From: a virus
Virus record (IMG/VR): IMGVR_UViG_3300020405_000035
Span: 1 to 20,863 of that record
Direction: 5' to 3' (one strand)
Length of the DNA: 20,863 nt
Of the stretch, positions 2,387 to 20,745 are shown one piece after another. The notes beneath the pieces were generated by a model. That model was not told the DNA's origin. It saw nothing but the letters and a program-made list of their open reading frames with translations, and searched no databases. The position numbers and the translations under genes were made by a program. Each line of letters starts with the position of its first letter. Position 1 is the stretch's first letter.

Positions 2387-5098
2387 TTATACGATTGTTA
2401 CAGTCTCTCCCGCACCGATAGTAAGAGTGACGCCATTATTTATAGTTATAGGCCCAGCTGCCATGGCATTTCGGCCATCGGTAACTGTGTAGTCAGCTGA
2501 TAATGTTGTATGATTTTCATAGAAAACACCACCCTGAGTTACTGCACTAGCAGTTGCTTCAAGACTAATACCGGGGATTCTAAGTTTGGTTATAGAAGTA
2601 TTACCTAAAGTAATTTCATTGCTAGTTGAATCACTTGTAGCAGCAGCATTATAACCAATAATTATATTGTTATTGCCTGTTTCTAAAGCGTCACCAGCTT
2701 TATAACCTATCGCTACGTTATAGTCACCACCAGATCCATCACTACTACCACCAACTACTTTTAAAGACTCAGTTCCCAACGCTGTATTATAATCTCCAAA
2801 ATACGCAAGAGCCATTGATTGATAGCCTATTGCAGCATTTTTAGTACCCTTTGTCTGCCACATAGCCATCTCACCAAAGCAAGCATTATTCCCTTGGGTT
2901 GTAAGTGAGTAACCAGCATCTAGTCCTACACAAGTGTTTTGTTGACCAGTTGTAATTTGTTGTCCAGCACCTCTGCCAATACCCATATTTCCATATGCTG
3001 TAGTGACTGACTTTAAAGCATCTTTTCCTAGTGCAGTTGAATGATCTCCAGTAGTTATTGATGTACCAGCATCGTATCCGATTAAAGTGTTATTAAGACC
3101 AGAACCAGCAGTAATAGCATCTCCAGCATTTGTACCACCTACAGTGTTTTTATCAGAATCAGAACTTAGCCCTCCTCCGCTAGCAGCTGCAAATCCAGCT
3201 TCTCCGTTAGCGTCTACTGTTAGTACATAACCTTCAGTAGGTGTACCACCATTATCTTTAAGTGTTACATTTATACCGGGTATTCTAAACTTGGTTATAT
3301 CTGTGTTGCCTAAAGTTATTTCGTTAGAAACAGTTTGACTACTTGGATCAGTAGATTTACCAATAATTATATTATTAGATCCAGTAGTTAAGCCAGCTGT
3401 TCCGCCGGTTGCACCACCTTCATATCCAATAAGAATATTACTAGATCCAGTTGTAAGAAATTTTCCAGCATCAACACCAAAACAACAGTTGTCGTCACCA
3501 GTAGTTGCATTGTAGGCACTATTATATCCTACTACTGTATTTCTTATTGCACTAGAACCATAGTATAAACTGTTTTGACCAATCGCAACTGTCATACTAG
3601 GTGATGTAGATGTAAATGCAGAATCGTATCCAATTACTACATAGTTACTTCCAGAAGTAATGTTTGCACCAGCATTAGTACCTACACAAACTCCGTTACT
3701 ACCAGTAGTAACATCTTGACCAGCAGCAAAACCTATAAACGTATTCTTTTCACCAGTAGTTAAAAATTTACCAGCACTTTGGCCCATGCAAGTATTTGAG
3801 CCACCAGTATATAAGTTTTGGCAAGCACCTGTTCCAACAGCTGTATTGCTGCTTGATCGGGCAACATTTAAAGCATACCAACCAACCGCTACATTATTAT
3901 TACCACCCCAATTACTGCCTAGTTTAAAAGCTTCGGAACCAAATGCTGTGTTTCTGTCTCCAGCAGCACCCGAAGTAGCGTTTTGACCAGCTCCATAACC
4001 AAAGAAAGTACTACCAGTTCCCGCAGTGCCAGCACTAGTACCACCTCTAGTTAGTGAACCTACACTATGGGCGTAAATACTAATACTCTTTGTAGCTCCA
4101 GTACCGGTTGCAGTTACATAAGATCCTGTAAAGTTAAGAGTACTAGCGTCAGTAGATAAAGCAGTTCCTTCGTCTTGGACTGTTACTCCACCACCTCCAG
4201 CTGCGGCTTCCCATCCAGCTTCACCGTTAGCATCTACAGTTAGAACATAGTCCTCTGTAGCTGTACTATCTTTAACAGTAAAGTTAATTCCGGGAATCCT
4301 AAATTTATTTACATCAGAGTTACCAATAGTAACTTCGTTTGATACGGATGCCGAAGTTGGTGTAGCTTGGTAACCTAACATGGTATTATTATTACCAGTT
4401 AATGTCGTTACAAAACAACAGTAACGACCAATACCAGTATTCCGCTCGCCAGTAGTAACAAACGATCCAGCCTCGTTACCAACAAAAACATTACTCTGAC
4501 CAGTTGTAATTCTTCCGCCTGCGTAAAAGCCTAATCCTGTGTTGTAACTTCCTGTAGTAGCAGCTTGTAAAGCATAATAACCAACTCCAGTTTGTTCTCG
4601 AGCAGTGGTAGTAGATTTTACAGCTTCGTAGCCAAGAGCAGTGTTCCAACCACCCTCAAATTGATACCCACCAGATGCGTCTGAATTTTGTAATGCCTTA
4701 TATCCAACACCTACGTTTTTGTAAGAAGTAACAGTATTTTTTCCAGCTTCAAAACCTAAATATGTATGTCCATAACCTACTGTTAGATTAGCTCCAGCAG
4801 AGTGACCAACTGCTACGTTTTCATCTGACGTAGTTAAATCAGTACCAGCATCATATCCAATTAAAGTATTCTTTAAACCTTGACCAGAAGTAATAGCATC
4901 ACCAGCATTAGTTCCACCGATAGTGTTTCCGTCAGAGTCAGAGGACAAACCTCCTCCTCCTCCTCCAATTTCTACAACTGAGCCACCATCTGTTTGGGTA
5001 AATAAACCGCCGTCGGTGGTATTAATAGCTAACTCACCAACAGCAACGTCAGAAGCACTAGGATCGCTAGTACCTCTTTTGTGCTTGATTGTAGCCAT
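2387..5098 (-). CDS. Large beta-roll-repeat tail fibre / adhesin-like protein, 903 aa
   Basis: Residues 1-45 (MATIKHKRGTSDPSASDVAV, then GELAINTTDGGLF) are a common N-terminal module of marine phage fibres. A six-glycine linker is at 45-50. Three cassettes follow, at about 51-271, 345-609 and 643-844. Each is made of short repeats of the form N-T-x-[IVL]-G-x-x-A-G spaced about 18-25 residues (about 32 in total), and each ends in SNE[VI]T[IL]GN....K[FL]RIPGI. The repeats recall YadA-head and Hep/Hag left-handed beta-rolls of trimeric adhesins. The resemblance is by eye. Linkers at 272-300 and 610-640 share YVLTVDANGEAG. Residues 857-903 are a C-terminal cap also found in the 269-aa fibre protein. 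It is probably a trimeric receptor-binding fibre or side fibre. There are no enzymatic motifs. Confidence 0.9.
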   Translation of the reverse strand: MATIKHKRGTSDPSASDVAVGELAINTTDGGLFTQTDGGSVVEIGGGGGGLSSDSDGNTIGGTNAGDAITSGQGLKNTLIGYDAGTDLTTSDENVAVGHSAGANLTVGYGHTYLGFEAGKNTVTSYKNVGVGYKALQNSDASGGYQFEGGWNTALGYEAVKSTTTAREQTGVGYYALQAATTGSYNTGLGFYAGGRITTGQSNVFVGNEAGSFVTTGERNTGIGRYCCFVTTLTGNNNTMLGYQATPTSASVSNEVTIGNSDVNKFRIPGINFTVKDSTATEDYVLTVDANGEAGWEAAAGGGGVTVQDEGTALSTDASTLNFTGSYVTATGTGATKSISIYAHSVGSLTRGGTSAGTAGTGSTFFGYGAGQNATSGAAGDRNTAFGSEAFKLGSNWGGNNNVAVGWYALNVARSSSNTAVGTGACQNLYTGGSNTCMGQSAGKFLTTGEKNTFIGFAAGQDVTTGSNGVCVGTNAGANITSGSNYVVIGYDSAFTSTSPSMTVAIGQNSLYYGSSAIRNTVVGYNSAYNATTGDDNCCFGVDAGKFLTTGSSNILIGYEGGATGGTAGLTTGSNNIIIGKSTDPSSQTVSNEITLGNTDITKFRIPGINVTLKDNGGTPTEGYVLTVDANGEAGFAAASGGGLSSDSDKNTVGGTNAGDAITAGSGLNNTLIGYDAGTSITTGDHSTALGKDALKSVTTAYGNMGIGRGAGQQITTGQQNTCVGLDAGYSLTTQGNNACFGEMAMWQTKGTKNAAIGYQSMALAYFGDYNTALGTESLKVVGGSSDGSGGDYNVAIGYKAGDALETGNNNIIIGYNAAATSDSTSNEITLGNTSITKLRIPGISLEATASAVTQGGVFYENHTTLSADYTVTDGRNAMAAGPITINNGVTLTIGAGETVTIV
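2567..4948 (-). repeat. Three beta-roll repeat cassettes encoded inside the 903-aa fibre gene
   Basis: Cassette 1 is encoded by 4286-4948, cassette 2 by about 3272-4066 and cassette 3 by 2567-3172. Cassettes 1 and 3 both open with GLSSDSD, N-T-[IV]-GGTNAGDAIT and NTLIGYDAGT. The corresponding DNA at about 4850-4965 and 3069-3175 is clearly similar base by base, indicating duplication. Each cassette ends in the same SNE.T.GN....RIPGI block. By eye there are about 10, 13 and 9 N-T-x-x-G-x-x-A-G units. Several units carry Cys next to the glycine (YCCF, NTCMG, GVCVG, NCCFG, NTCVG, NACFG). Confidence 0.85.
4950..4966 (-). repeat. (GGA)n trinucleotide run encoding a hexaglycine linker
   Basis: The plus strand shows five and two-thirds copies of CCT. 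On the coding strand this is GGA repeated, giving Gly45-Gly50 between the N-terminal module and the first repeat cassette of the 903-aa protein. Slippage here would change linker length in frame. The minus-strand GGAGG content also resembles a Shine-Dalgarno sequence, but no start codon in a useful frame follows at normal spacing. Confidence 0.85.
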
Positions 5099-5101
5099 GT
5101 T

Positions 5102-6991
5102 TTAAAAACTACCTCCGTCGATTACTCCGACTGTCAATAGACCCGAAGATGGATTGTAAGAAAGACCTGTGTCTGTTTCTATTCCTTGTGAACCTGTAGC
5201 ACCATCAGTAAATGTAAGATATACAGTTTCATTAGTAGAGTTGTTTGCTGAAACTGTAACGTTTGTAGCTAGACCAGCTGTACTGGCTGAGGTAGCACTT
5301 GCACAACTTCCAGAAGAAGTTATATATCCAGCACCGTTAGTAAGCTGATTATTGTTTGTTACATTAGTAGCTGAAGCTGCAATGCCATTTAGCTTACTCA
5401 ATAAAGCATCTGTAAATGCGTTTGTATTAGAGTTATTTTCATAAGCAGTTTTTATTTCTGCATCTGTTTGGTCAGCAGTTGCACTTGCTTCAATTCCTTC
5501 AAGTTTACTTTTTAAAGCATTTGTAAAATCATTTGCTGTTTGACTTGCGACAGTAAAATCTATCGTACCGTCTCCGTCTTGATATGCGACAGTTATGCCT
5601 GACTCAGTATTGCCAGTAAGCATAGCTCCGACTATATCTTGTACTTGTTCGCTAGATAACTGAGTGTTTGTGTTGGTAGAAGCAAAATCTAATTTACCAT
5701 TTGTATCGTCATAGGTAACTGAAATATTAGTTTCAGTATTACTAGAGACCATTGCTCCAACAATATCTTGTACTTGCTCTGTTGAAAGCTGTGTATTTGT
5801 ATCTGTCGCTGCAATAGTAACAGTATCAGAAGTAGCATTAGTTGTGATAGTAACATTACTGCCAGCAGCAAAAGTTACTGTATCGGTAGCACTATCCGCA
5901 GCTACTGTTGTTTGACCACTGACTGCAACGTTAGAAAATGCGTTCTGGTTGTTCTCTCCACCAGCACCAGCTGCTCCCCACTCTAAACCGTTTGAAGTAT
6001 ACTTAAGAATGTAACCTTCAGTAGGAGCGTTATGTATGTCTAACATCGCCTCTGTAACAGAGTCATCAGCTACAGAAATTGTAGTACCACTTATACCAAT
6101 ACCGCTACCAGCTGTAAGACTTGCCCAAGTTAAATTACCAGATCCAGAGGTACTTAGTACTTGGTTAGCAGTACCTACACTAGATGGAAACGTTAAAGTA
6201 TAAGTTTGTTGTGCACTGTGAGGAGGTGACTTTAGTTTTATACCATGGTTATTATTCCAGCAGTTTAGCTGTAAGTATCCGTCAACAGAGCTACCATCAC
6301 CTTTAATAGTTAGACCAGCTGTAGAAGAGTCAGAAACAAAGTTAGTCATGCTCTTTTCTACAGCTCCACTTTGAATCGTTGAAGTTCCGGTAACATTACC
6401 TGATCCATCAAACGAAGCGGATGTCCAAACTACATCTCCAGTCATACCAATGGTTTTACCGTTAGCTAAGCTAGTTGCACTACCAGTTACGTTACCTGTA
6501 AGATTACCGGAAAAGCTTTTACCACTAGCAAGTGCAATGTGTTCTGATGATGTCCAAGAATCAGTTGAATTAACCCAGTTAAATGTTTTATCTGTAGCAC
6601 CTTTTAAAGTAATACCACCACCATCAGCGGTTGAATCAGTTGGAGTAGTAACCTTACCAAGTTCTAAATTCTTATCTTCTACATTGACAGTACTGCTTGA
6701 AATTGTAGTAGTTGTACCATTAACAGTTAAGTCACCTGTAACTGTTACGTTATCACTAAAAGTTTTATTACCAGCTGCTGTTTGTGCACCTTCAAGTGCC
6801 ATGAAAGCACCGGCTCCACCGATTTTTATAATATTAGCAGCATTATCGCCACTTGTACCTGTACCTATATATAGTGTTCGACCACCCGAAGAAGTATCAG
6901 TACCTTCAGTAAAAGCTAATTCTGCGTTAGCTAGTGTTAGGCCAGATATACTGCTTCCAGTAGACCTTTTTATTCGTATTTTTGATGCCAT
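5102..6991 (-). CDS. Large low-complexity tail fibre-like protein, 629 aa
   Basis: Residues 1-45 (MASKIRIKRSTGSSISGLTL, then ANAELAFTEG and GGRTLYIG) form an N-terminal module of marine phage fibres. The stretch 75-112 (NKTFSDNVTVTGDLTVNG, then STVNVEDKNLELG) and 160-175 (FSGNLTGNVTGSATSL) are known recurrent fibre motifs. A linker APTEGYILKYTSNGLEWGA is at about 322-340. Two tandem 43-residue repeats with QLS.EQVQDIVGAM lie at 398-481. Two copies of a KL.GI.ASAT motif are near 496 and 533. The protein ends VGVIDGGSF. It is rich in Ser, Thr, Asn and Gly, with no membrane segment or enzyme motif. It lies three bases after the 181-aa adaptor-type gene. It is probably a fibrous virion protein, with the specific role unknown. 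Confidence 0.88.
   Translation of the reverse strand: MASKIRIKRSTGSSISGLTLANAELAFTEGTDTSSGGRTLYIGTGTSGDNAANIIKIGGAGAFMALEGAQTAAGNKTFSDNVTVTGDLTVNGTTTTISSSTVNVEDKNLELGKVTTPTDSTADGGGITLKGATDKTFNWVNSTDSWTSSEHIALASGKSFSGNLTGNVTGSATSLANGKTIGMTGDVVWTSASFDGSGNVTGTSTIQSGAVEKSMTNFVSDSSTAGLTIKGDGSSVDGYLQLNCWNNNHGIKLKSPPHSAQQTYTLTFPSSVGTANQVLSTSGSGNLTWASLTAGSGIGISGTTISVADDSVTEAMLDIHNAPTEGYILKYTSNGLEWGAAGAGGENNQNAFSNVAVSGQTTVAADSATDTVTFAAGSNVTITTNATSDTVTIAATDTNTQLSTEQVQDIVGAMVSSNTETNISVTYDDTNGKLDFASTNTNTQLSSEQVQDIVGAMLTGNTESGITVAYQDGDGTIDFTVASQTANDFTNALKSKLEGIEASATADQTDAEIKTAYENNSNTNAFTDALLSKLNGIAASATNVTNNNQLTNGAGYITSSGSCASATSASTAGLATNVTVSANNSTNETVYLTFTDGATGSQGIETDTGLSYNPSSGLLTVGVIDGGSF
5549..5800 (-). 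repeat. Tandem 43-residue repeats (two copies) in the 629-aa fibre gene
   Basis: Copy 1 (residues 398-440) and copy 2 (441-481) share TNTQLS[ST]EQVQDIVGAM, then N-T-E-[TS]-x-I-[ST]-V-x-Y-x-D and G-[KT]-[LI]-D-F. The underlying DNA is also similar between 5672-5800 and 5549-5671. This unit recurs in fibre-like genes of marine phages and probably forms repeated beta-stalk segments. Confidence 0.85.
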
Positions 6992-6994
6992 AGT

Positions 6995-7540
6995 TTAAAA
7001 ATTACCCCCATCGACAATGTTGGTTTTAGTTGTTGTGTTATCAGCTTTAAAAGTACTAGCTGTGTTATCAAAATAAATTAGTGATCCATCAGCCTTGCTT
7101 GTAAAAACTGAATTAAGATCATCTATAGAAAAACTAGAAGAACTTGACCCAGATGAATTAGATATTATAGGGTTGTTTACATCTTCTGCTTCTTGAGCAA
7201 AGAATAATGTCTGTCTAGTATTATTATTTAAATCTACTGCTCGGATAGTTGAACCGGGGGTGAAGGTAGATAATGCTGCTTCTATACCAGACTGTCTATA
7301 TATAAGTAGAGTCTGAGTATTAGTTGGGGCAGGGTTTACGGTTACAGTCCCTGCTGTTTTAGCACTATTAGGTGTAACGGAGTACTCGTTATTTCCGGGT
7401 GTGCCATCTTTATAATTAAGATCTGTGCCATTAACTCTTACTTTAATGTCCCGATCTCTTATAAACTGTATTGAAAATGCAAAGTCAGTAGTAATGCCAT
7501 TAAGCTGTGTACCACTATATGTTTTTGTTGTTACTGCCAT
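6995..7540 (-). CDS. Second T7 gp17 N-terminal-domain protein (fibre adaptor-like), 181 aa
   Basis: Residues about 1-120 match the T7 tail fibre N-terminal domain, the part that attaches gp17 to the tail. The match rests on strands YSGTQLNGITTDFAFSIQF and IKVRVNGTDLNY, and the diagnostic block PGSTIRAVDLNNNTRQTLFF then AQEAED at about 95-120. The equivalent in T7 gp17 is GSILRAYDLN...HVAEEARD. The protein then has a Ser-rich linker (SSGSSSSSFS) and a short strand region, and stops at NIVDGGNF with no receptor-binding domain. It is therefore probably an adaptor or anchoring subunit onto which another fibre protein docks, plausibly the 629-aa product encoded three bases downstream. That partner assignment is inference. 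Its upstream neighbour carries a second version of the same domain. Confidence 0.87.
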   Translation of the reverse strand: MAVTTKTYSGTQLNGITTDFAFSIQFIRDRDIKVRVNGTDLNYKDGTPGNNEYSVTPNSAKTAGTVTVNPAPTNTQTLLIYRQSGIEAALSTFTPGSTIRAVDLNNNTRQTLFFAQEAEDVNNPIISNSSGSSSSSFSIDDLNSVFTSKADGSLIYFDNTASTFKADNTTTKTNIVDGGNF

Positions 7541-7542
7541 GA

Positions 7543-8352
7543 TTAGATTATTGTAAAGTTTTCTCCAGCCCCTATAGTAACAACTACTCCGCTTCCTATA
7601 GTAATTGGCCCTGCACTCATAGCATTTTTATTATTACCAACTGTGTAGTTTTCCGTAATTGTCTGGTTATTTTCGTACACACATCCGTTTGCTACAGTGG
7701 CAAATACACCAATTAAATTACCACCATCTACTGCTGGAAGCACTGAGGGAAATCTAGCGTCCGGTATTGTACCAGTTAACTGGCTTGCACCTATACTAAC
7801 ATCTGATGGAAGTGCACCAGCTCCTAGTTTGTCCATTGTTACAGCGTCAGCAGCTATTTTAGCTGTAGTAATCCCATTGTCAGGTATTTTAGCAGTAGTG
7901 ACGCTGCTGTCTGCTAATTTAGCAGTTGTTACTGCCGAATTATCTATTGACCAAGTTGTTCCATTAGTAACCGTTATGTCACCCTTGTCGCCAGCAGTCA
8001 AAGCTATTCCGGCACCGTCAGCACCTATAGTTTGTAACTCTTCGACGGCAAATCTAACCTGTTTAGTTGCACGATTTAAGTCAACAGCTCGTAAAGATCC
8101 GCCTGCTGCAAATGTGACAGCTGGGGTTGCCACGTCAGTAGTTCTAAATGCTTTTACATTACCTGTACCGACTCCCGGTGCACTTGTAAGAGTAAGTACT
8201 CCAGCTGCGGTTACGTTATATGCTGACGAACTCAAATTAGAACCGCCATTTATTGATACCTTGACATCTGCTGTGTTTAAAAAGTCAAACGCATCTATTG
8301 TATATTCAGTAGCAGCATCTGTAGTCCCGTTAAATAATTGTTGAGTTGCCAT
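7543..8352 (-). CDS. Tail fibre protein, T7 gp17 N-terminal domain, 269 aa
   Basis: Residues about 1-108 form the T7 gp17-type N-terminal tail-attachment domain, including FNGTTDAATEYTIDAFDFL and the diagnostic GGSLRAVDLNRATKQVRFAV then EELQ at 84-106. Residues 139-178 hold four decapeptide repeats of the V-T-T-A-K type, typical of phage fibre shafts. VLPAVDGGNLIGV at 204-216 precedes a C-terminal cap at 223-269 (YENNQTITENYTV, then AMSAGPITIGSGVVVTIGAG). The position directly after gene 16 matches T7 gene 17, but at 269 aa it is about half of T7 gp17 (553 aa) and lacks the large receptor-binding tip. It probably forms the short trimeric fibre base at the tail. Other genes here may supply the distal parts. 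Confidence 0.9.
   Translation of the reverse strand: MATQQLFNGTTDAATEYTIDAFDFLNTADVKVSINGGSNLSSSAYNVTAAGVLTLTSAPGVGTGNVKAFRTTDVATPAVTFAAGGSLRAVDLNRATKQVRFAVEELQTIGADGAGIALTAGDKGDITVTNGTTWSIDNSAVTTAKLADSSVTTAKIPDNGITTAKIAADAVTMDKLGAGALPSDVSIGASQLTGTIPDARFPSVLPAVDGGNLIGVFATVANGCVYENNQTITENYTVGNNKNAMSAGPITIGSGVVVTIGAGENFTII
7819..7938 (-). repeat. Four ten-residue V-T-T-A-K repeats in the 269-aa fibre gene
   Basis: Residues 139-178 read as four consecutive decapeptides: SAVTTAKLAD, SSVTTAKIPD, NGITTAKIAA and DAVTMDKLGA. Plus-strand DNA shows the matching repeated agcagt-type blocks. Repeats of this kind are common in phage tail fibres and likely build a regular shaft. Confidence 0.85.
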
Positions 8353-15013: not shown

Positions 15014-15437
15014 GGCAAAATTCAATAAATGTTACATTGTTCGGCCCATGTTTTAACTTACGTAAAAACTTAAAGCCAAGAAACTTCAGCAATCTTAAAT
15101 GAGCTGTGTTTCTACTGTCAACTATATTCCAAAGGAGGGGCTCAGTGCGGCTATCGACATACCGTTTAGCCTCTCTTGCGAATGTAATTGGGTATCGGTG
15201 AATCTCTGGAGTGCAAAGCATCCATATGTCACCGTCTTTTCCTACTCCGGCCATGCCAGCAGTCTTGCCGTCAGGCACTGTGAAATACACGTAGGAGGGG
15301 TTTGAAGACATCAAAGAAGGTAAGAGGGCCGATGGTATCCCATGGCCTTCTTCAACCTCTCTGAGGTCATCTGGACGGAGATTGAAGACTACTTCGGTAG
15401 CAGCCTCCATTGTGATTGGGTGAATATATTTAGACAC
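14997..15437 (-). CDS. Internal virion protein A-like (gp13-like, GNAT fold), 146 aa, GTG start
   Basis: The segment LLWNIVDSRNTAHLRLLKFL then GFKF (about 101-124) aligns with T7 gp13 LWNYVWVGNTSHIRFLKTIGAVF. The N-terminus KYIHPITMEAATEVVFNLRP then DDLREVEEGHG fits the IRPAT...LRP.D..E pattern of phage GNAT-fold proteins related to gp13. In T7, gp13 is needed for assembly of the internal core rather than shown to be an enzyme. Classical acetyl-CoA-binding R/Q-x-x-G-x-G/A is not evident, so catalysis is doubtful. I choose GTG at 15437-15435 because it keeps the first strand YIHPIT. The alternative ATG at 15410 would remove it. The start overlaps the end of the tail tubular B gene by eight bases. 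Confidence 0.85.
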   Translation of the reverse strand: MSKYIHPITMEAATEVVFNLRPDDLREVEEGHGIPSALLPSLMSSNPSYVYFTVPDGKTAGMAGVGKDGDIWMLCTPEIHRYPITFAREAKRYVDSRTEPLLWNIVDSRNTAHLRLLKFLGFKFLRKLKHGPNNVTFIEFCRVRRR

Positions 15438-18400
15438 GTGAGTAAAATCTAGGTGAATAGTCTCCCTCCCATGATAAGGCGTGTAATGTAGCAGGGGAAG
15501 GGTGTGTGGATCTTAACGTAATATCTACGTTTGTATTCCTTTCGTATACAGGAACTGTTTTGATAAACTCTGGTAGATAAGGTACTTTACCAGCCTCGTA
15601 CTCTGATGCTAAAATTGATTCATGCTGATCTTCATACGTAGGTTTGCCTACACGTTTTAGAGAGGTTTTGTATGTACCAACTTTTCCAAAGTGAAACTTA
15701 AGTCTGTGTAACACAAGAGAAGAGTTTACATCAGCTGTAGCTTTGTTACCACTTACTTTAAATGGATACAGCGTAGGAAACTGAACCTCATAATCGTACA
15801 CATAACCAACAGTAAAATGGGTTTGTCCGCTAGGTAGTGTGGAGTTTGTCCAGTCACCAACTAGAGTTAAAGTTGTTCCTGATACTGTAGGTTTAGTATA
15901 TCTACCTGTACTATCTATAATAGCAACATCATAATTAGAATTTTGAATATTACTTAACCAGCCCACACCACTGAAGGTGGTTGTGTTGCTTGTATTACTG
16001 AAGACACCACCATTGATAGTAGTATGGTTGTCAAGATGTAGTAAATAGTTAATCGCATTTTCGTCTGTAGCAGTAGGATCGTCGTCAGATTTTATAAGTC
16101 TTATTTTTTGTAATATTTTATCTTTGTCCAGAAAGAAGTATTCATCATCTATAATAAAATGATACAGTAAACCTTTATTAAACTTCCATTTAAACCATGA
16201 AGCTTGCTGCCTCTGTTCCGCTACTTGAAAGTATTTGTAGCCGAAAACTATACCAGCTGAGTCATTAGTAGATGTCTGAGACATAAGTACAATACCATTT
16301 TCTCGTGAGTTAGTGAGAAGATCAATATTTTTAGGAAGAAGTGACGGTACAACTTTACTAACTTCTACTACGTTAGGTTCACCTTCTCTACGTACATTAG
16401 CCATTTCATTAAATCGGCTAAACTTACCTGAGTTATCTACATAACCTATTGTAAGTCCTAAAGATATAGGAGGTATATCTTTGTTATAGTTAAACGTAGA
16501 TACGCTTCGCATCTTAGCTGTATCAGGATTAAGAACTGTGTCATCAGCTGCTAGTAAAAATTGTTGGTTTGTACTAAATACTAATAAACCACTTGTCGTT
16601 TCTATGCCATCAAACAATTCGGATGGGAACATAGATGCAGCAGATATATCTATAGGGTCGCTAGCTGATACGGTTAGAGCCGATTCTATAAAGAAATCAG
16701 GTCTACCTAATGTACCGGGGCGAGATAATATAACGTTTTCTCCGGACAAAAAGGCTAATCTATTACGGAAAAATAATACCTTATTTATCCTACCAATAAA
16801 ACTATTGTTAGATGATTTTGGTAATCCGTCGCTGGTCTGTACAAAACTAGGAAATGGGTTAGTTTTATCATCACCAACTCTTCTACCTTCATATTGAAAC
16901 CTTTTAACAGTAAACGTAGCTAATTGGTTAGATGCGTTATAAGCTGTACGTTGTATAACGAGTGGCATATTAGTTAGTGACATAGTTATTCCCCCTTCTG
17001 CACATTCAGACCATGAGCCTGACCCATCTCGACCATTGTTACCATTGAAAATAAGGTAGTAATCGTCTTCATCTGCCATTCGGGAGTTAGATATCTGTAC
17101 TATATATCCATGTTTACACTGGTTAGGTAGATTAGTAACATCATTTACTGACGTGTGCATGACTCTCATCAAGTCATCTTCTACAGTTTCTACAGAAAAC
17201 TTAATATCATTCGCTGGGTCAGAGGCGTCATTAGTATAAAAGTAAATTCCTGTACCTATAATATCAGCATTAATACCAGTACCAGCTAGAGCCCCCTTAA
17301 TACCACCAAGTATTGTATCAGCAGTAACCGCAGTATCAGCGTCGAAGGGTGTAGGAGCTGGTCGTATTAACCCATCACCGGGGTTATTAGAAGCGATTGT
17401 AGCATTTACTACAGTTTCTTCGTGCTCCATTACTTCTACAGTAAAGGTTGCTGGCTTATCCTGAGCCGTGTCCAAAGCAACTATTGCTTGATCTCCTGTT
17501 TTCCATCCCTCTCCTCCGTGAAGTAGTATAGCTTCTCTCTGATAACTGCATCGGTATACAGGTGATGATCCTGAGCTATTAGGTGCTACTCCTTGCTGCC
17601 CAAGAATATTTAATCTAAATGTTAAATTAGTTTTAGATGTATCTGCACTGTGCCCATCAGTAGGGTTTCCGAAAACTGTTTTTGTTCTAGTATTATTGGA
17701 TGAGTTAAAGGTTCTAGCATACTGATAATTGTCTAACGGAATAAACCAGTCTTTTGCTCGACCCGCTTGTGCGTTTGGATGAGTTAAACTTACCTCTGTC
17801 ACCCCTGCGTTAGCTTTATCTCGATTTACAGCCAAGTATAAAGCATAACTTCCCAAAAGATAGCTAACAAAATATACATGACCGTGTACTAAGCCGGGGT
17901 ACGGACTTTCGTTTTCACCTTTATCATATACCAAAGGTTGCCCATAACCAAAACCGTGTACATGATTATAGTTAAGTTGGACAAAAGTGCCGCTAGCATT
18001 TGTTGTGATGTTATTAAATCCGCTTGCAGGCGAGGCGTTCATATCAAACGCCCACTTCATATAGTTAGAATTATTTACTGGTGAGTCAATTAGTCCATTA
18101 TTAAAGGTATCAGCACTGTTAACACTAAATACTTGGGTACCAATAGAAGGACAGTGCCCAGTATGGTCAGCTTCGAGTAGTGAATCACTTACTATTTTAA
18201 TACGTGTAGCACGCTGAAGTGTAGTAGTAGTGGTATTTGTATTTCTATTTATATTTAATCCGTACTGTCTACCGTTTGCCGATCTTAATAATTCAACAAA
18301 TGCGTAGTTCCTATGAGGTGCTGTAGGAGTAGTTCCTGTAGTTCCTACTGCTGTAGCAGTTCTTGGACTTCCGGCTGATACGTTTAATGGTGCGACTCCA

Positions 18401-18870
18401 TCGTCTACCTCTGCTTGTGTGTAGTTACTACTATCTCTATTACTAATAAATGTAGTATCATTAATCGTTAAGAATTGTAAGTTCTCTGGCTTAGTTGTTT
18501 GAAGATAGGGTAATAGATCTACTAAGTCCTGTGTACTACCATCACCAAAGACTACTGTTTGTGCCAGACCTGTCTTACAACTCCATATACGAATCTGACC
18601 AGTTGCAGAACTTCCTGATCCAGTTGCTACTTGTCCTATGTAAGCTCCTTCTTCCTCATCACGATAATAATGAAACCAAGATCCTTCGCTTTGTACACCA
18701 GAAAGGGGTGAGGTTCCTACTCTGTCTGCTCCCGGTCTTTTAAATAGACCTCTAGTTACATCTGGAATAGCGTTTGTAAGATCTTTAAGTTGTCCGGGAA
18801 ATTTTAAATTATCTGGCTGTTCTGATATACCACCAATAAAACTTGGTATAGTTTGTGTTATGCCTGCCAT
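15430..18870 (-). CDS. Tail tubular protein B (gp12-like nozzle), enlarged, 1146 aa
   Basis: The N-terminus MAGITQTIPSFIGGISEQPD, then NAIPDVTRGLFKRPG, matches T7 gp12 (MALISQSIKNLKGGISQQPD...EGLQKRP). Around residues 690-730, NPFPSFV, FFRNRLAFLSGENVILSRPG and DPIDI match T7 gp12 NPWPSFVGS...FFFRNRLGFLSGENIILSR...DPIDV. The C-terminus LSWEGDYSPRFYSRV matches T7 GCGWEGNY. The protein forms the conical nozzle below the gp11 ring and carries the fibre-attachment region. At 1146 aa it is about 350 residues longer than T7 gp12 (794). Much of the excess lies around residues 250-440, including GFGYGQPLVYDKGENESPYP then GLVHGHVYFVSYLLGSYALY, a segment resembling small beta domains of other phage surface proteins. 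The start overlaps the upstream stop by one base (TAATG). Confidence 0.93.
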   Translation of the reverse strand: MAGITQTIPSFIGGISEQPDNLKFPGQLKDLTNAIPDVTRGLFKRPGADRVGTSPLSGVQSEGSWFHYYRDEEEGAYIGQVATGSGSSATGQIRIWSCKTGLAQTVVFGDGSTQDLVDLLPYLQTTKPENLQFLTINDTTFISNRDSSNYTQAEVDDGVAPLNVSAGSPRTATAVGTTGTTPTAPHRNYAFVELLRSANGRQYGLNINRNTNTTTTTLQRATRIKIVSDSLLEADHTGHCPSIGTQVFSVNSADTFNNGLIDSPVNNSNYMKWAFDMNASPASGFNNITTNASGTFVQLNYNHVHGFGYGQPLVYDKGENESPYPGLVHGHVYFVSYLLGSYALYLAVNRDKANAGVTEVSLTHPNAQAGRAKDWFIPLDNYQYARTFNSSNNTRTKTVFGNPTDGHSADTSKTNLTFRLNILGQQGVAPNSSGSSPVYRCSYQREAILLHGGEGWKTGDQAIVALDTAQDKPATFTVEVMEHEETVVNATIASNNPGDGLIRPAPTPFDADTAVTADTILGGIKGALAGTGINADIIGTGIYFYTNDASDPANDIKFSVETVEDDLMRVMHTSVNDVTNLPNQCKHGYIVQISNSRMADEDDYYLIFNGNNGRDGSGSWSECAEGGITMSLTNMPLVIQRTAYNASNQLATFTVKRFQYEGRRVGDDKTNPFPSFVQTSDGLPKSSNNSFIGRINKVLFFRNRLAFLSGENVILSRPGTLGRPDFFIESALTVSASDPIDISAASMFPSELFDGIETTSGLLVFSTNQQFLLAADDTVLNPDTAKMRSVSTFNYNKDIPPISLGLTIGYVDNSGKFSRFNEMANVRREGEPNVVEVSKVVPSLLPKNIDLLTNSRENGIVLMSQTSTNDSAGIVFGYKYFQVAEQRQQASWFKWKFNKGLLYHFIIDDEYFFLDKDKILQKIRLIKSDDDPTATDENAINYLLHLDNHTTINGGVFSNTSNTTTFSGVGWLSNIQNSNYDVAIIDSTGRYTKPTVSGTTLTLVGDWTNSTLPSGQTHFTVGYVYDYEVQFPTLYPFKVSGNKATADVNSSLVLHRLKFHFGKVGTYKTSLKRVGKPTYEDQHESILASEYEAGKVPYLPEFIKTVPVYERNTNVDITLRSTHPSPATLHALSWEGDYSPRFYSRV

Positions 18871-19514
18871 TATCTTCTAAGGTTTCTCCATGGTTGATAA
18901 GTCTGATAGGATGATCCTTGTTCAAATCCTAACATGTTGTGATCCCCTTGGTTACATTCGTACTCCATCAGTGCTGCTCTTGATAATTGTTCTTGAGTTC
19001 CAAGCAGTCTAACTAAAGCAGGGTTAGCAACTAGCTGTGTTGCTGCTACACGTGATGCTCTGTATGTAATGTAACGTCTAAATACAATAGGTAAGACAGA
19101 GAATGGTCTTAAGTAAATGACATCAAGGTCAAGAGCTGATTCAAATTCATTTGTATGTTTTACTTTATCATACACAAATCCATTCTCATCCCTGACTAGA
19201 TCCTTAATGCGTCTATCCTTATTGTTGTGTAAGTCTAGCTGTAGTACATCGTTCGGATATACTATATGCTTATTTCCATCAGGAGGAAACTTTTTGTGTA
19301 ACTCAGTATTATAGTGCCAACCTTCAGCTTGTGTATCTACGTTAGCGTCACGAAGTAAGTTAAATATAAATGCAACTTCTGGGTTGTCATATGCTTCGAC
19401 ATTATCAGTCTCGCTGACAGTGCCTAGAGTGGTTATAGGTGCTTGTCCGATAGCCCCCAGTATTGAGTTAACTGCGGATAGTTCGGTATCGAGGTCAATA
19501 GTTGTGGTTGCCAT
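18870..19514 (-). CDS. Tail tubular protein A (gp11-like gatekeeper ring), 214 aa
   Basis: The segment TELSAVNSILGAIGQAPITT, then VAFIFNLLRDANVDTQAEGW and HYNTE, matches T7 gp11 [20 protein letters not shown]...INRQIQSRGWTFNIE. Downstream, YPNDVLQLDLH, ENGFVYDKV and VFRRYITYRASRVAATQLV have equivalents in gp11. Length is close to T7 gp11 (196 aa). It forms the ring between the portal and the gp12 nozzle and helps close the channel. The frame is open for 50 more codons upstream (to 19664). The start at 19514 is chosen because homology begins there, and the extra stretch is Leu/His-rich and overlaps the capsid gene and a terminator. The start has no Shine-Dalgarno sequence and lies ten bases after the terminator hairpin. 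Confidence 0.95.
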   Translation of the reverse strand: MATTTIDLDTELSAVNSILGAIGQAPITTLGTVSETDNVEAYDNPEVAFIFNLLRDANVDTQAEGWHYNTELHKKFPPDGNKHIVYPNDVLQLDLHNNKDRRIKDLVRDENGFVYDKVKHTNEFESALDLDVIYLRPFSVLPIVFRRYITYRASRVAATQLVANPALVRLLGTQEQLSRAALMEYECNQGDHNMLGFEQGSSYQTYQPWRNLRR

Positions 19515-19517
19515 AAG

Positions 19518-19540
19518 AAAAAAAGGGAGCCGAAGCCCCC
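19518..19540 (-). terminator. Rho-independent terminator after the capsid gene (T-phi-like)
   Basis: On the coding strand a six-base-pair GC-rich stem (GGGGGC paired with GCUCCC, one G-U pair) closes a UUCG tetraloop and is followed directly by seven U residues. Stem arms are at 19535-19540 and 19525-19530, the loop at 19531-19534 and the U tract at 19518-19524. It lies between the capsid stop and the gp11-like ATG, exactly where T7 has T-phi. It should be partly read through, because all tail genes are downstream and no promoter is evident between. Confidence 0.93.
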
Positions 19541-19557
19541 GTATAAAAAGTATAAAA

Positions 19558-20745
19558 TTAAAACTTAACGTTTCCTGTAGTTGTTGCTTCACCAGCACTG
19601 TTGCGTGTAGGTGCAACGCCAGCGATAAGTTCAACAGCAGCAGCAGGGTTAAGTGCATCAGCACCCATAGCTAGACGTCCTAAGATAACATCACCTTGGT
19701 ATACCACTGAGATGTCTCCAGATGTTGTCTGAACTTGTGGGCCGATTGCTTCAACGCAAGCAGCAGCTTCTTTTTGGAAGATAAGTCCACAGCTGTTAGC
19801 AAAGTTATTAGTACCGTTACCATAGCTGTTGATGGTTTTTGTTGCTGAAGAACCAGCTGTCTCATCTGCCATACCATCTGCGACGAAAGTACCTGTAGCT
19901 CCGGGGTCTGTAACACCGGGGTTTGTTGCAGATGCAGAACCATACTTAGTACCAAAGTTTCCGAAGAAAGGAATGTTCATTGACTTGAATATCTGGATTC
20001 CAGCTATCTCAATGATTCCGTTACCTGATTGTAACGCATCTCCTCTTTCGGTACGGTTGATTAAGCCGTTTGTTTCTACATTCTGTATAAGTTCGTAGTA
20101 CTGTCTTGGGTTAAGTACAGCTACTCTACCTTCACCAGATACACCTTTCTCGTCAAGTGCAGCGGCAGCATTATAAAAACCTTCAATTAGGCATTGAGAG
20201 TCATAAGCTGCTTTACCGTCAGTAACTCCAGTTCTGGTTAATTGAATCTGTGTTCCACCGGGCTCGACATAGTTCGCCTTTGTGATTGGAGAAGCTTGTC
20301 TTGCAGCCTTAACAACGGTTCTGAAGATCTTTCTGTCATACTGCTCTGCAAGAGCGTATCCGATCTTTCTTGAGATCTCACCACGTAAGTCGTAGTGTGC
20401 AAGTGTCTCATCTAATTCGTAGACAAATGCACTGGAGATCAATAGATCGTCAACAGTCACTGTCTTTTCAGCTACTGGAGGTGCTCCATCGGAGTTACCT
20501 AGTATGCTGTTGCCGGGTGTATGGTACTCGGCTTTTGTTCTACCTGTAAAGATGAACTGAAGAGACTTACCATTTGTAAGTGTTCTCTTCATAACGAGAT
20601 CACGGGCTATTGTGTTCCTTTGGAAGCCTTTGAACATCTCGCCGGAAAACAATTTAAGGTATAAATGCCTCTTGTCTCCCGCTCCATTGGACTGACCCAG
20701 TTGGGTTAAATCTGCCAATGGCTCATTACTATTTTGTTGTGCCAT
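19558..20745 (-). CDS. Major capsid protein (gp10-like), 395 aa
   Basis: This is the HK97-fold major capsid protein of T7-like marine podoviruses. The N-terminal region (MAQQNSNEPLADLTQLGQSN, then LYLKLFSGEMFKGFQRNTIA) contains the KLFSGEV-like and F-x-R-x-x-I-x-x-x-x motif typical of T7-like capsids. It is followed by IFTGRTKAEYHTPGNSILG, TVDDLLISSAFVYELDETLA and HYDLRGEISRKIGYALAEQYDRK. Residues around 205-225 read GRVAVLNPRQYYELIQN, and the end has GDVILGRLAMGADALNPAAA. Length is somewhat above T7 gp10A (345 aa). I see no evidence for or against a gp10B-type frameshift extension. The ATG is 28 bases after the scaffold stop and lacks a Shine-Dalgarno sequence. The terminator 18 bases past its stop should boost its mRNA relative to tail genes. 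Confidence 0.95.
   Translation of the reverse strand: MAQQNSNEPLADLTQLGQSNGAGDKRHLYLKLFSGEMFKGFQRNTIARDLVMKRTLTNGKSLQFIFTGRTKAEYHTPGNSILGNSDGAPPVAEKTVTVDDLLISSAFVYELDETLAHYDLRGEISRKIGYALAEQYDRKIFRTVVKAARQASPITKANYVEPGGTQIQLTRTGVTDGKAAYDSQCLIEGFYNAAAALDEKGVSGEGRVAVLNPRQYYELIQNVETNGLINRTERGDALQSGNGIIEIAGIQIFKSMNIPFFGNFGTKYGSASATNPGVTDPGATGTFVADGMADETAGSSATKTINSYGNGTNNFANSCGLIFQKEAAACVEAIGPQVQTTSGDISVVYQGDVILGRLAMGADALNPAAAVELIAGVAPTRNSAGEATTTGNVKF

Follow-up and report, generated by a model that had tools for sequence, protein, structure and literature searches.

Two adjacent gp17-type anchor genes, and a candidate fibre built in series, in an uncultured T7-like virus record

The window, by which we mean the whole stretch of DNA analysed here, is a 20,863-base record of an uncultured virus in which the late genes lie in T7-like order on the minus strand. 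Counted from the capsid, the order is tube (PF17212), nozzle (PF25675), a gp13-like gene and an unassigned 184-aa ORF, downstream of which an ORF of 799 aa occupies the place of gp15 and an internal virion protein of 1234 aa that of gp16, the near relatives of this last protein including those of the cyanophages S-TIP37 and P-SSP7 (~48% identity). The gp16-position gene is followed by genes for proteins of 269, 181, 629 and 903 aa, together with several smaller ones. Descriptions of T7-type tails give them one fibre protein; the initial annotation had noticed that two adjacent products of this region, the 269-aa protein (here A) and the 181-aa protein (here B), each seemed to carry a gp17-type attachment domain. 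The features of the tail and of the two anchor proteins are the following:

18870..19664, minus strand: tail tube/adaptor protein (gp11-like), PF17212 at 110 bits; half of the expected docking site
15430..18870, minus strand: nozzle protein (gp12-like), PF25675 at 446.7 bits; half of the expected anchor docking site
7543..8352, minus strand: A protein, 269 aa, PF03906 at 31.3 bits; short repeat shaft and its own C-terminal tip
8011..8313, minus strand: gp17-type anchor domain of A, residues 14-114, by PF03906 and a PDB profile match
7546..7683, minus strand: tip of A, residues 224-269 (...SAGPITIGSGVVVTIGAGENFTII); the 903-aa protein ends in the same tip type
6995..7540, minus strand: B protein, 181 aa, PF03906 at 50.2 bits; anchor plus docking-like tail
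7169..7540, minus strand: gp17-type anchor domain of B, residues 1-124, by PF03906 and a match to the P-SCSP1u fibre
6998..7141, minus strand: C-terminal tail of B, residues 134-181 (...KADGSLIYFDNTASTFKADNTTTKTNIVDGGNF), by alignment; proposed docking end

The pair of anchor genes is confirmed by the Pfam search that had been set as its check, the domain being found in both products and not in one only. Against PF03906 (Phage_T7_tail), whose curated cut-off is 25.2 bits, B scores 50.2 bits (E 2.9e-13, residues 1-124) and A 31.3 bits (E 2e-7, residues 14-114), and a six-frame search of the record finds no third anchor place besides these two. Compared with the PDB, the profile of the 181-type family matches the P-SCSP1u fibre at 5.9e-12 and T7 gp17 at 6e-4, and that of the 269-type family matches them at 1.1e-9 and 1.1e-7, respectively. 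The AlphaFold2 model of B has a pLDDT of ~80-93 across residues 11-80 of the N-terminal domain, and its best PDB matches in Foldseek, 9efk (LME-1, 5.6e-5), 8i4m (P-SCSP1u, 8.1e-5), 8ck1 and 7y1c, are podovirus tail or fibre-anchor structures, the TM of ~0.4 being low because the remainder of the model is poor; for A, it is the sequence profile that supports the gp17-type fold. Both proteins retain the anchor helix motif, which lies at residues ~95-105 of the 181-aa protein and 83-93 of the 269-aa protein rather than at 105-118 as first annotated, and the pattern [GP]GS.[IL]RAVDLN given for both holds in the 181-aa protein but not in the 269-aa one, which reads GGSLRAVDLN, one residue fewer. 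Within one genome, the anchor domains of A and B share 26-48% identity.

To place the pair among its relatives, loci were gathered by B, A and gp16 searches and their anchors sorted with two profiles. Many of the gathered records give two PF03906 matches above the cut-off. A followed by B occurs in 37 distinct record groups and the reversed order in none, the pair being present in two lineages with differing gp16 proteins; one further A assignment (L215) is borderline, and the second tree described below places it outside A. In 22 of these groups B takes the form of a fibre, full-length or cut, and in the other 15, that of the window included, it is bare and 153-198 aa long. Most of the relatives gathered by way of gp16 have just one fibre gene, a long one. 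Among the sorted record groups A was never seen without B. Bare B is found without A but with the downstream chain in L076, L077 and L155, where it is the sole anchor found, and L210 has a 197-aa B with neither a DGG end nor A. The related two-anchor records are all environmental contigs, mostly fragments. Phage databank records show one anchor place each (224 and 116 records searched by tblastn, whose sensitivity between A and B is limited at 26-48% identity), Pfam scans of ten phage records give at most one above-cut-off anchor domain each, and in the open-access literature searched no phage was reported to have two PF03906 proteins.

Among 96 anchor domains placed in a tree, with the first-of-pair labels taken from gene order and not from the tree, all 26 first-of-pair domains group to the same side of a single branch (support 99/99); in a second tree, to which isolates and more pairs were added and from which long branches were removed, the A branch holds 29 rows with support 100/97. 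The alignment is short (127 columns), which leaves the inner forks unsure, the A branch itself being present in 99-100% of the bootstrap trees. Because the first-of-pair domains form one well-supported branch, A is a separate family and not a recent copy of B, and a recent duplication of A from B is rejected by both trees. Both proteins are under purifying selection, dN/dS being 0.025/0.12 for A against L003, and 0.05/0.10 and 0.26/0.92 for B against L003 and L012.

The two anchors are continued in very different ways. A has its own tip and for that reason looks like a short complete fibre made of anchor, short shaft and tip. C-termini resembling this tip occur in marine phage fibre proteins, and relatives of A end in a Phage Tail Collar domain, which scores above the cut-off in L180 and below it in L148 and L146; some A proteins of other lineages end in other tips. 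B, for its part, looks like a bare adaptor, that is, an anchor without a receptor-binding part that is followed by a docking-like tail. It had been annotated as lacking a receptor-binding part, which stands, and as ending soon after the domain, which does not, since a conserved tail of ~48 aa follows that is near invariant in the alignment of relatives and closes with VDGGNF. The dN of this tail is below that of the anchor domain in all three comparisons, the tail is conserved across distant lineages, and it also ends the 66-77-aa proteins of siphophage-like contigs, which are otherwise unrelated to gp17. A search of phage records with 44 aa of the tail gave no match at E 0.01, and neither Pfam nor PHROG gave a T4 gp10-like branching domain in the 181-aa protein.

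The two large genes that follow B are organized as follows:

5102..6991, minus strand: 629-aa protein, proposed middle piece; Mtd_N-like N-terminus, shaft and DGGSF end
6812..6991, minus strand: Mtd_N-like N-terminal domain of the 629-aa protein (MASKIRIKRSTGSS...), by sequence and profile comparison
5105..5119, minus strand: DGGSF terminal motif of the 629-aa protein; the next gene is Mtd_N-like
2387..5098, minus strand: 903-aa protein, proposed distal piece; Mtd_N-like N-terminus (MATIKHKRGTSDP), long repeat body and A-like tip
2390..2530, minus strand: tip of the 903-aa protein (...NAMAAGPITINNGVTLTIGAGETVTIV), of the same type as that of A by sequence

Along this chain the 181-aa protein ends with DGGNF, the 629-aa protein starts with MASKIRIKRST and the 903-aa protein with MATIKHKRGT. 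The N-terminus of the 629-aa protein matches the full 37-position Mtd_N profile (PF18454) at 16.9 bits, below the cut-off of 26.3 bits, and that of the 903-aa protein has no Pfam match; the relative STIP37_40 of S-TIP37 reaches 54.8 bits. PDB profile matches of the N-terminal domain are to Mtd residues 1-41, at E ~0.08, and no Pfam lectin domain is found in the 629- or 903-aa proteins. The tail of B modelled with the next domain in AlphaFold2, as a single-chain proxy, gave a pLDDT of 58 and a pTM of 0.29. The same arrangement is met in siphophage-like contigs, in which a short protein with this tail is followed by an M..IRIKRST...DGGSY protein and then by an M..IKLKRGS protein with a fibre tip; in L015-L059 this KRS/KRG fibre cassette comes after the 66-77-aa protein with B's tail, and the cassette therefore moves between phage types. 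Stop readthrough from the 181-aa gene into the in-frame 629-aa gene was considered and rejected, because spacing and frame at this junction vary among relatives (gaps of -1, 0, 2 and 3 nt).

The association between tail and next gene is general in the sampled loci. A DGG- or DFG-type end is followed by an Mtd_N-like ORF in 120/120 distinct neighbouring ORF pairs, in sequences that are related rather than independent and represent about five kinds of tail context, and 120/123 Mtd_N-like ORFs have such an end upstream, as compared with 0/248 ORFs with two other common kinds of end that precede one. The Mtd_N-like domain was never found internal, inside longer (fused) proteins. Before other Mtd_N genes were scanned, the motif was fixed as [DN].G[GSTN][hydrophobic], at most two residues from the end; having been drawn from all earlier tails, including that of the query (L194), it provides a test that is independent of the DGG cassette and not of the seed. 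It was found in 32 of 50 distinct tails upstream of these genes, against 9 of 1619 background ends (0.6%), and DFG, LGGI and YGS tails are among those that precede other Mtd_N genes. Of the 18 tails that miss it, about ten are near variants (e.g. DYGALV, YNYGVI) and the others are true exceptions, with ...TAIAVALG ends before short Mtd_N proteins as an exception class. The proteins that follow these ends in L306, L315, L317, L319 and similar loci, the main exception to the motif, are 132-136 aa long, and the combination would be a different type of junction. In addition, seven loci (L071, L100, L113, L116, L127, L129 and L140) have a single long gp17 ending in ...LDFG[TS][LI], then a MAKLLKLRRGTT Mtd_N gene; this succession suggests two-piece fibres in cyanopodoviruses, including the cultured S-TIP37.

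The model we propose combines these observations, and we give it a probability of about two in three: the tail would carry two different anchors, one belonging to a short A fibre and the other, B, being the bare adaptor of a daisy-chained fibre (181-629-903). In P-SCSP1u, six fibre trimers sit between the adaptor and nozzle docks (PMC10575957), and at such sites A and B would plug between the gp11-like and gp12-like rings. The VDGGNF-ended tail of B would dock onto the Mtd_N-like N-terminus of the 629-aa protein; the DGGSF tail of that protein would make the next junction, with the Mtd_N-like start of the 903-aa protein, and the latter would supply the tip of the long three-piece fibre. The initial annotation had offered B as a bare adaptor and as a possible anchor for the 629- and 903-aa proteins; good support for both proposals comes from a docking-like tail that is conserved, from genes kept in strict order and from a cassette that moves between phage types, the physical docking being what we infer from them. 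A virion would then bear the short fibre beside the long one, presumably as trimers sharing the six docking sites. Two fibre types per virion would fit the presence of a tip on A itself and the existence of distinct, conserved A and B families.

The alternative that survives best, improbable as we consider it, makes A and B competing occupants of the same six sites, their ratio varying among virions or among sites. It agrees with the anchor helix motif being kept in both proteins and with the fact that, judged by length only, no larger nozzle or second dock accompanies the pair, and it differs from the proposed two-anchor arrangement in occupancy alone. Quite unlikely, and distinctly more so, are the hetero-fibres raised in the initial annotation, in which every one of the six docking sites would hold a trimer mixed from A and B chains. 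Such a trimer is geometrically conceivable, the three anchor chains of one P-SCSP1u site making different contacts (PMC10575957), and A is not seen without B; the idea found no positive support, however, given anchor domains only 26-48% identical, shafts and tips unlike in length and sequence, and the occurrence of B with the chain but without A in L076, L077 and L155.

Two further explanations bear on B and on its tail. The Gly codons in the DGG ends at 6998-7012 and 5105-5119 double as a Shine-Dalgarno-like site at short gap, and the DGGxF end might be merely a ribosome-binding site for the next gene, the anchors having no special link with what lies downstream. This is very unlikely. The first Gly codon of the motif is indeed GGA in 76% of cases with a gap of 4 nt or less before the next start, but at gaps above 4 nt (37 cases) the motif is retained with GGA in 24%, close to the background of 22%, while conservation extends ~35-48 residues upstream of the end and DFG, LGGI and YGS tails stand before other Mtd_N genes. 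Because the motif is kept at background-like codon choice with larger gaps, its use as a ribosome site is an add-on to a protein motif. Least credible of all is that B is the degenerate, truncated gp17 remnant of a split fibre, without structural role, for although bare B is nested among full-length gp17 domains in the tree, it is under purifying selection, its tail is kept across distant lineages, and it is the sole anchor found in L076, L077 and L155.

Set against known systems, the proposed combination of two anchors and a serial fibre has partial counterparts. T7 gp17 and P-SCSP1u gp28 resemble the window in having a PF03906 anchor placed after gp16, with nozzle and tube proteins, and differ from it in that they are the one fibre protein of their phages, whereas the window has two, the second without a receptor-binding part. 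The closest known bare adaptor to B is gp37 of K1-5, which in K1-5 and SP6 is likewise a short anchor that has no receptor-binding part of its own and holds separate proteins (PMC6872550). gp37 has a T4 gp10-like branching domain, and the spikes bear N-terminal peptides of 7 or 11 residues (PMC6872550); in the window, unlike this, it is the C-terminal tail of one protein that faces the Mtd_N-like N-terminus of the next, in series, and another fibre with its own anchor is encoded besides. The Klebsiella KP34-type group A phages also have a truncated anchor without receptor part and a separate depolymerase, but with a single anchor, T4gp10-type branching and no three-piece chain (PMC6872550). 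The closest known junction is that of fibre and Mtd in the Bordetella phage BPP-1, where Mtd is presumed to be attached to the fibre through its N-terminal beta-prism (PMC10743442): there, as in the window, a fibre gene, bbp9, immediately precedes that of the Mtd_N protein, mtd, and its DLGGIA end fits the tail motif, in the definition of which it was used, so that it is not a test. BPP-1 has one junction, a different anchor and a hypervariable lectin tip with a diversity-generating retroelement, whereas the window repeats the junction in series.

Could many uncultured marine T7-like phages have two anchor families per virion and a serial fibre assembled by a general end-to-end code, in which a [DN]-x-G-x-hydrophobic tail meets an Mtd_N-like N-terminus, common to podophage- and siphophage-like contigs and, by sequence, to BPP-1? 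We advance this generalization tentatively, at somewhat less than even odds. If it is true, the second conserved anchor family would imply that a single tail can display two kinds of fibre in phages common in the ocean, and the tail-to-Mtd_N rule would allow docking partners among fibre pieces to be predicted from sequence across phage types, which would aid the annotation of many 'hypothetical' genes downstream of gp16.

Two other features of the window concern its tail genes. The nozzle (15430-18870) has ~300 additional N-terminal residues compared with most relatives, its best Pfam stretch starting from residue 460, and this long form is also present in L060, L086 and L082. An extra nozzle docking domain tied to the A and B pair was considered and rejected, since L060 has a single anchor and other nozzles accompanying the pair are shorter, the nozzle fragments or ORFs in the two-anchor records of the second lineage being ~820-895 aa long. 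Finally, positions 676-2383 encode three adjoining proteins (180, 201 and 187 aa) whose C-termini are alike (...LMEVA or ILEVPS); they may be stand-alone fibre tips, the 201-aa protein having a match to the C-terminal end of the tail-fibre family phrog_6942.
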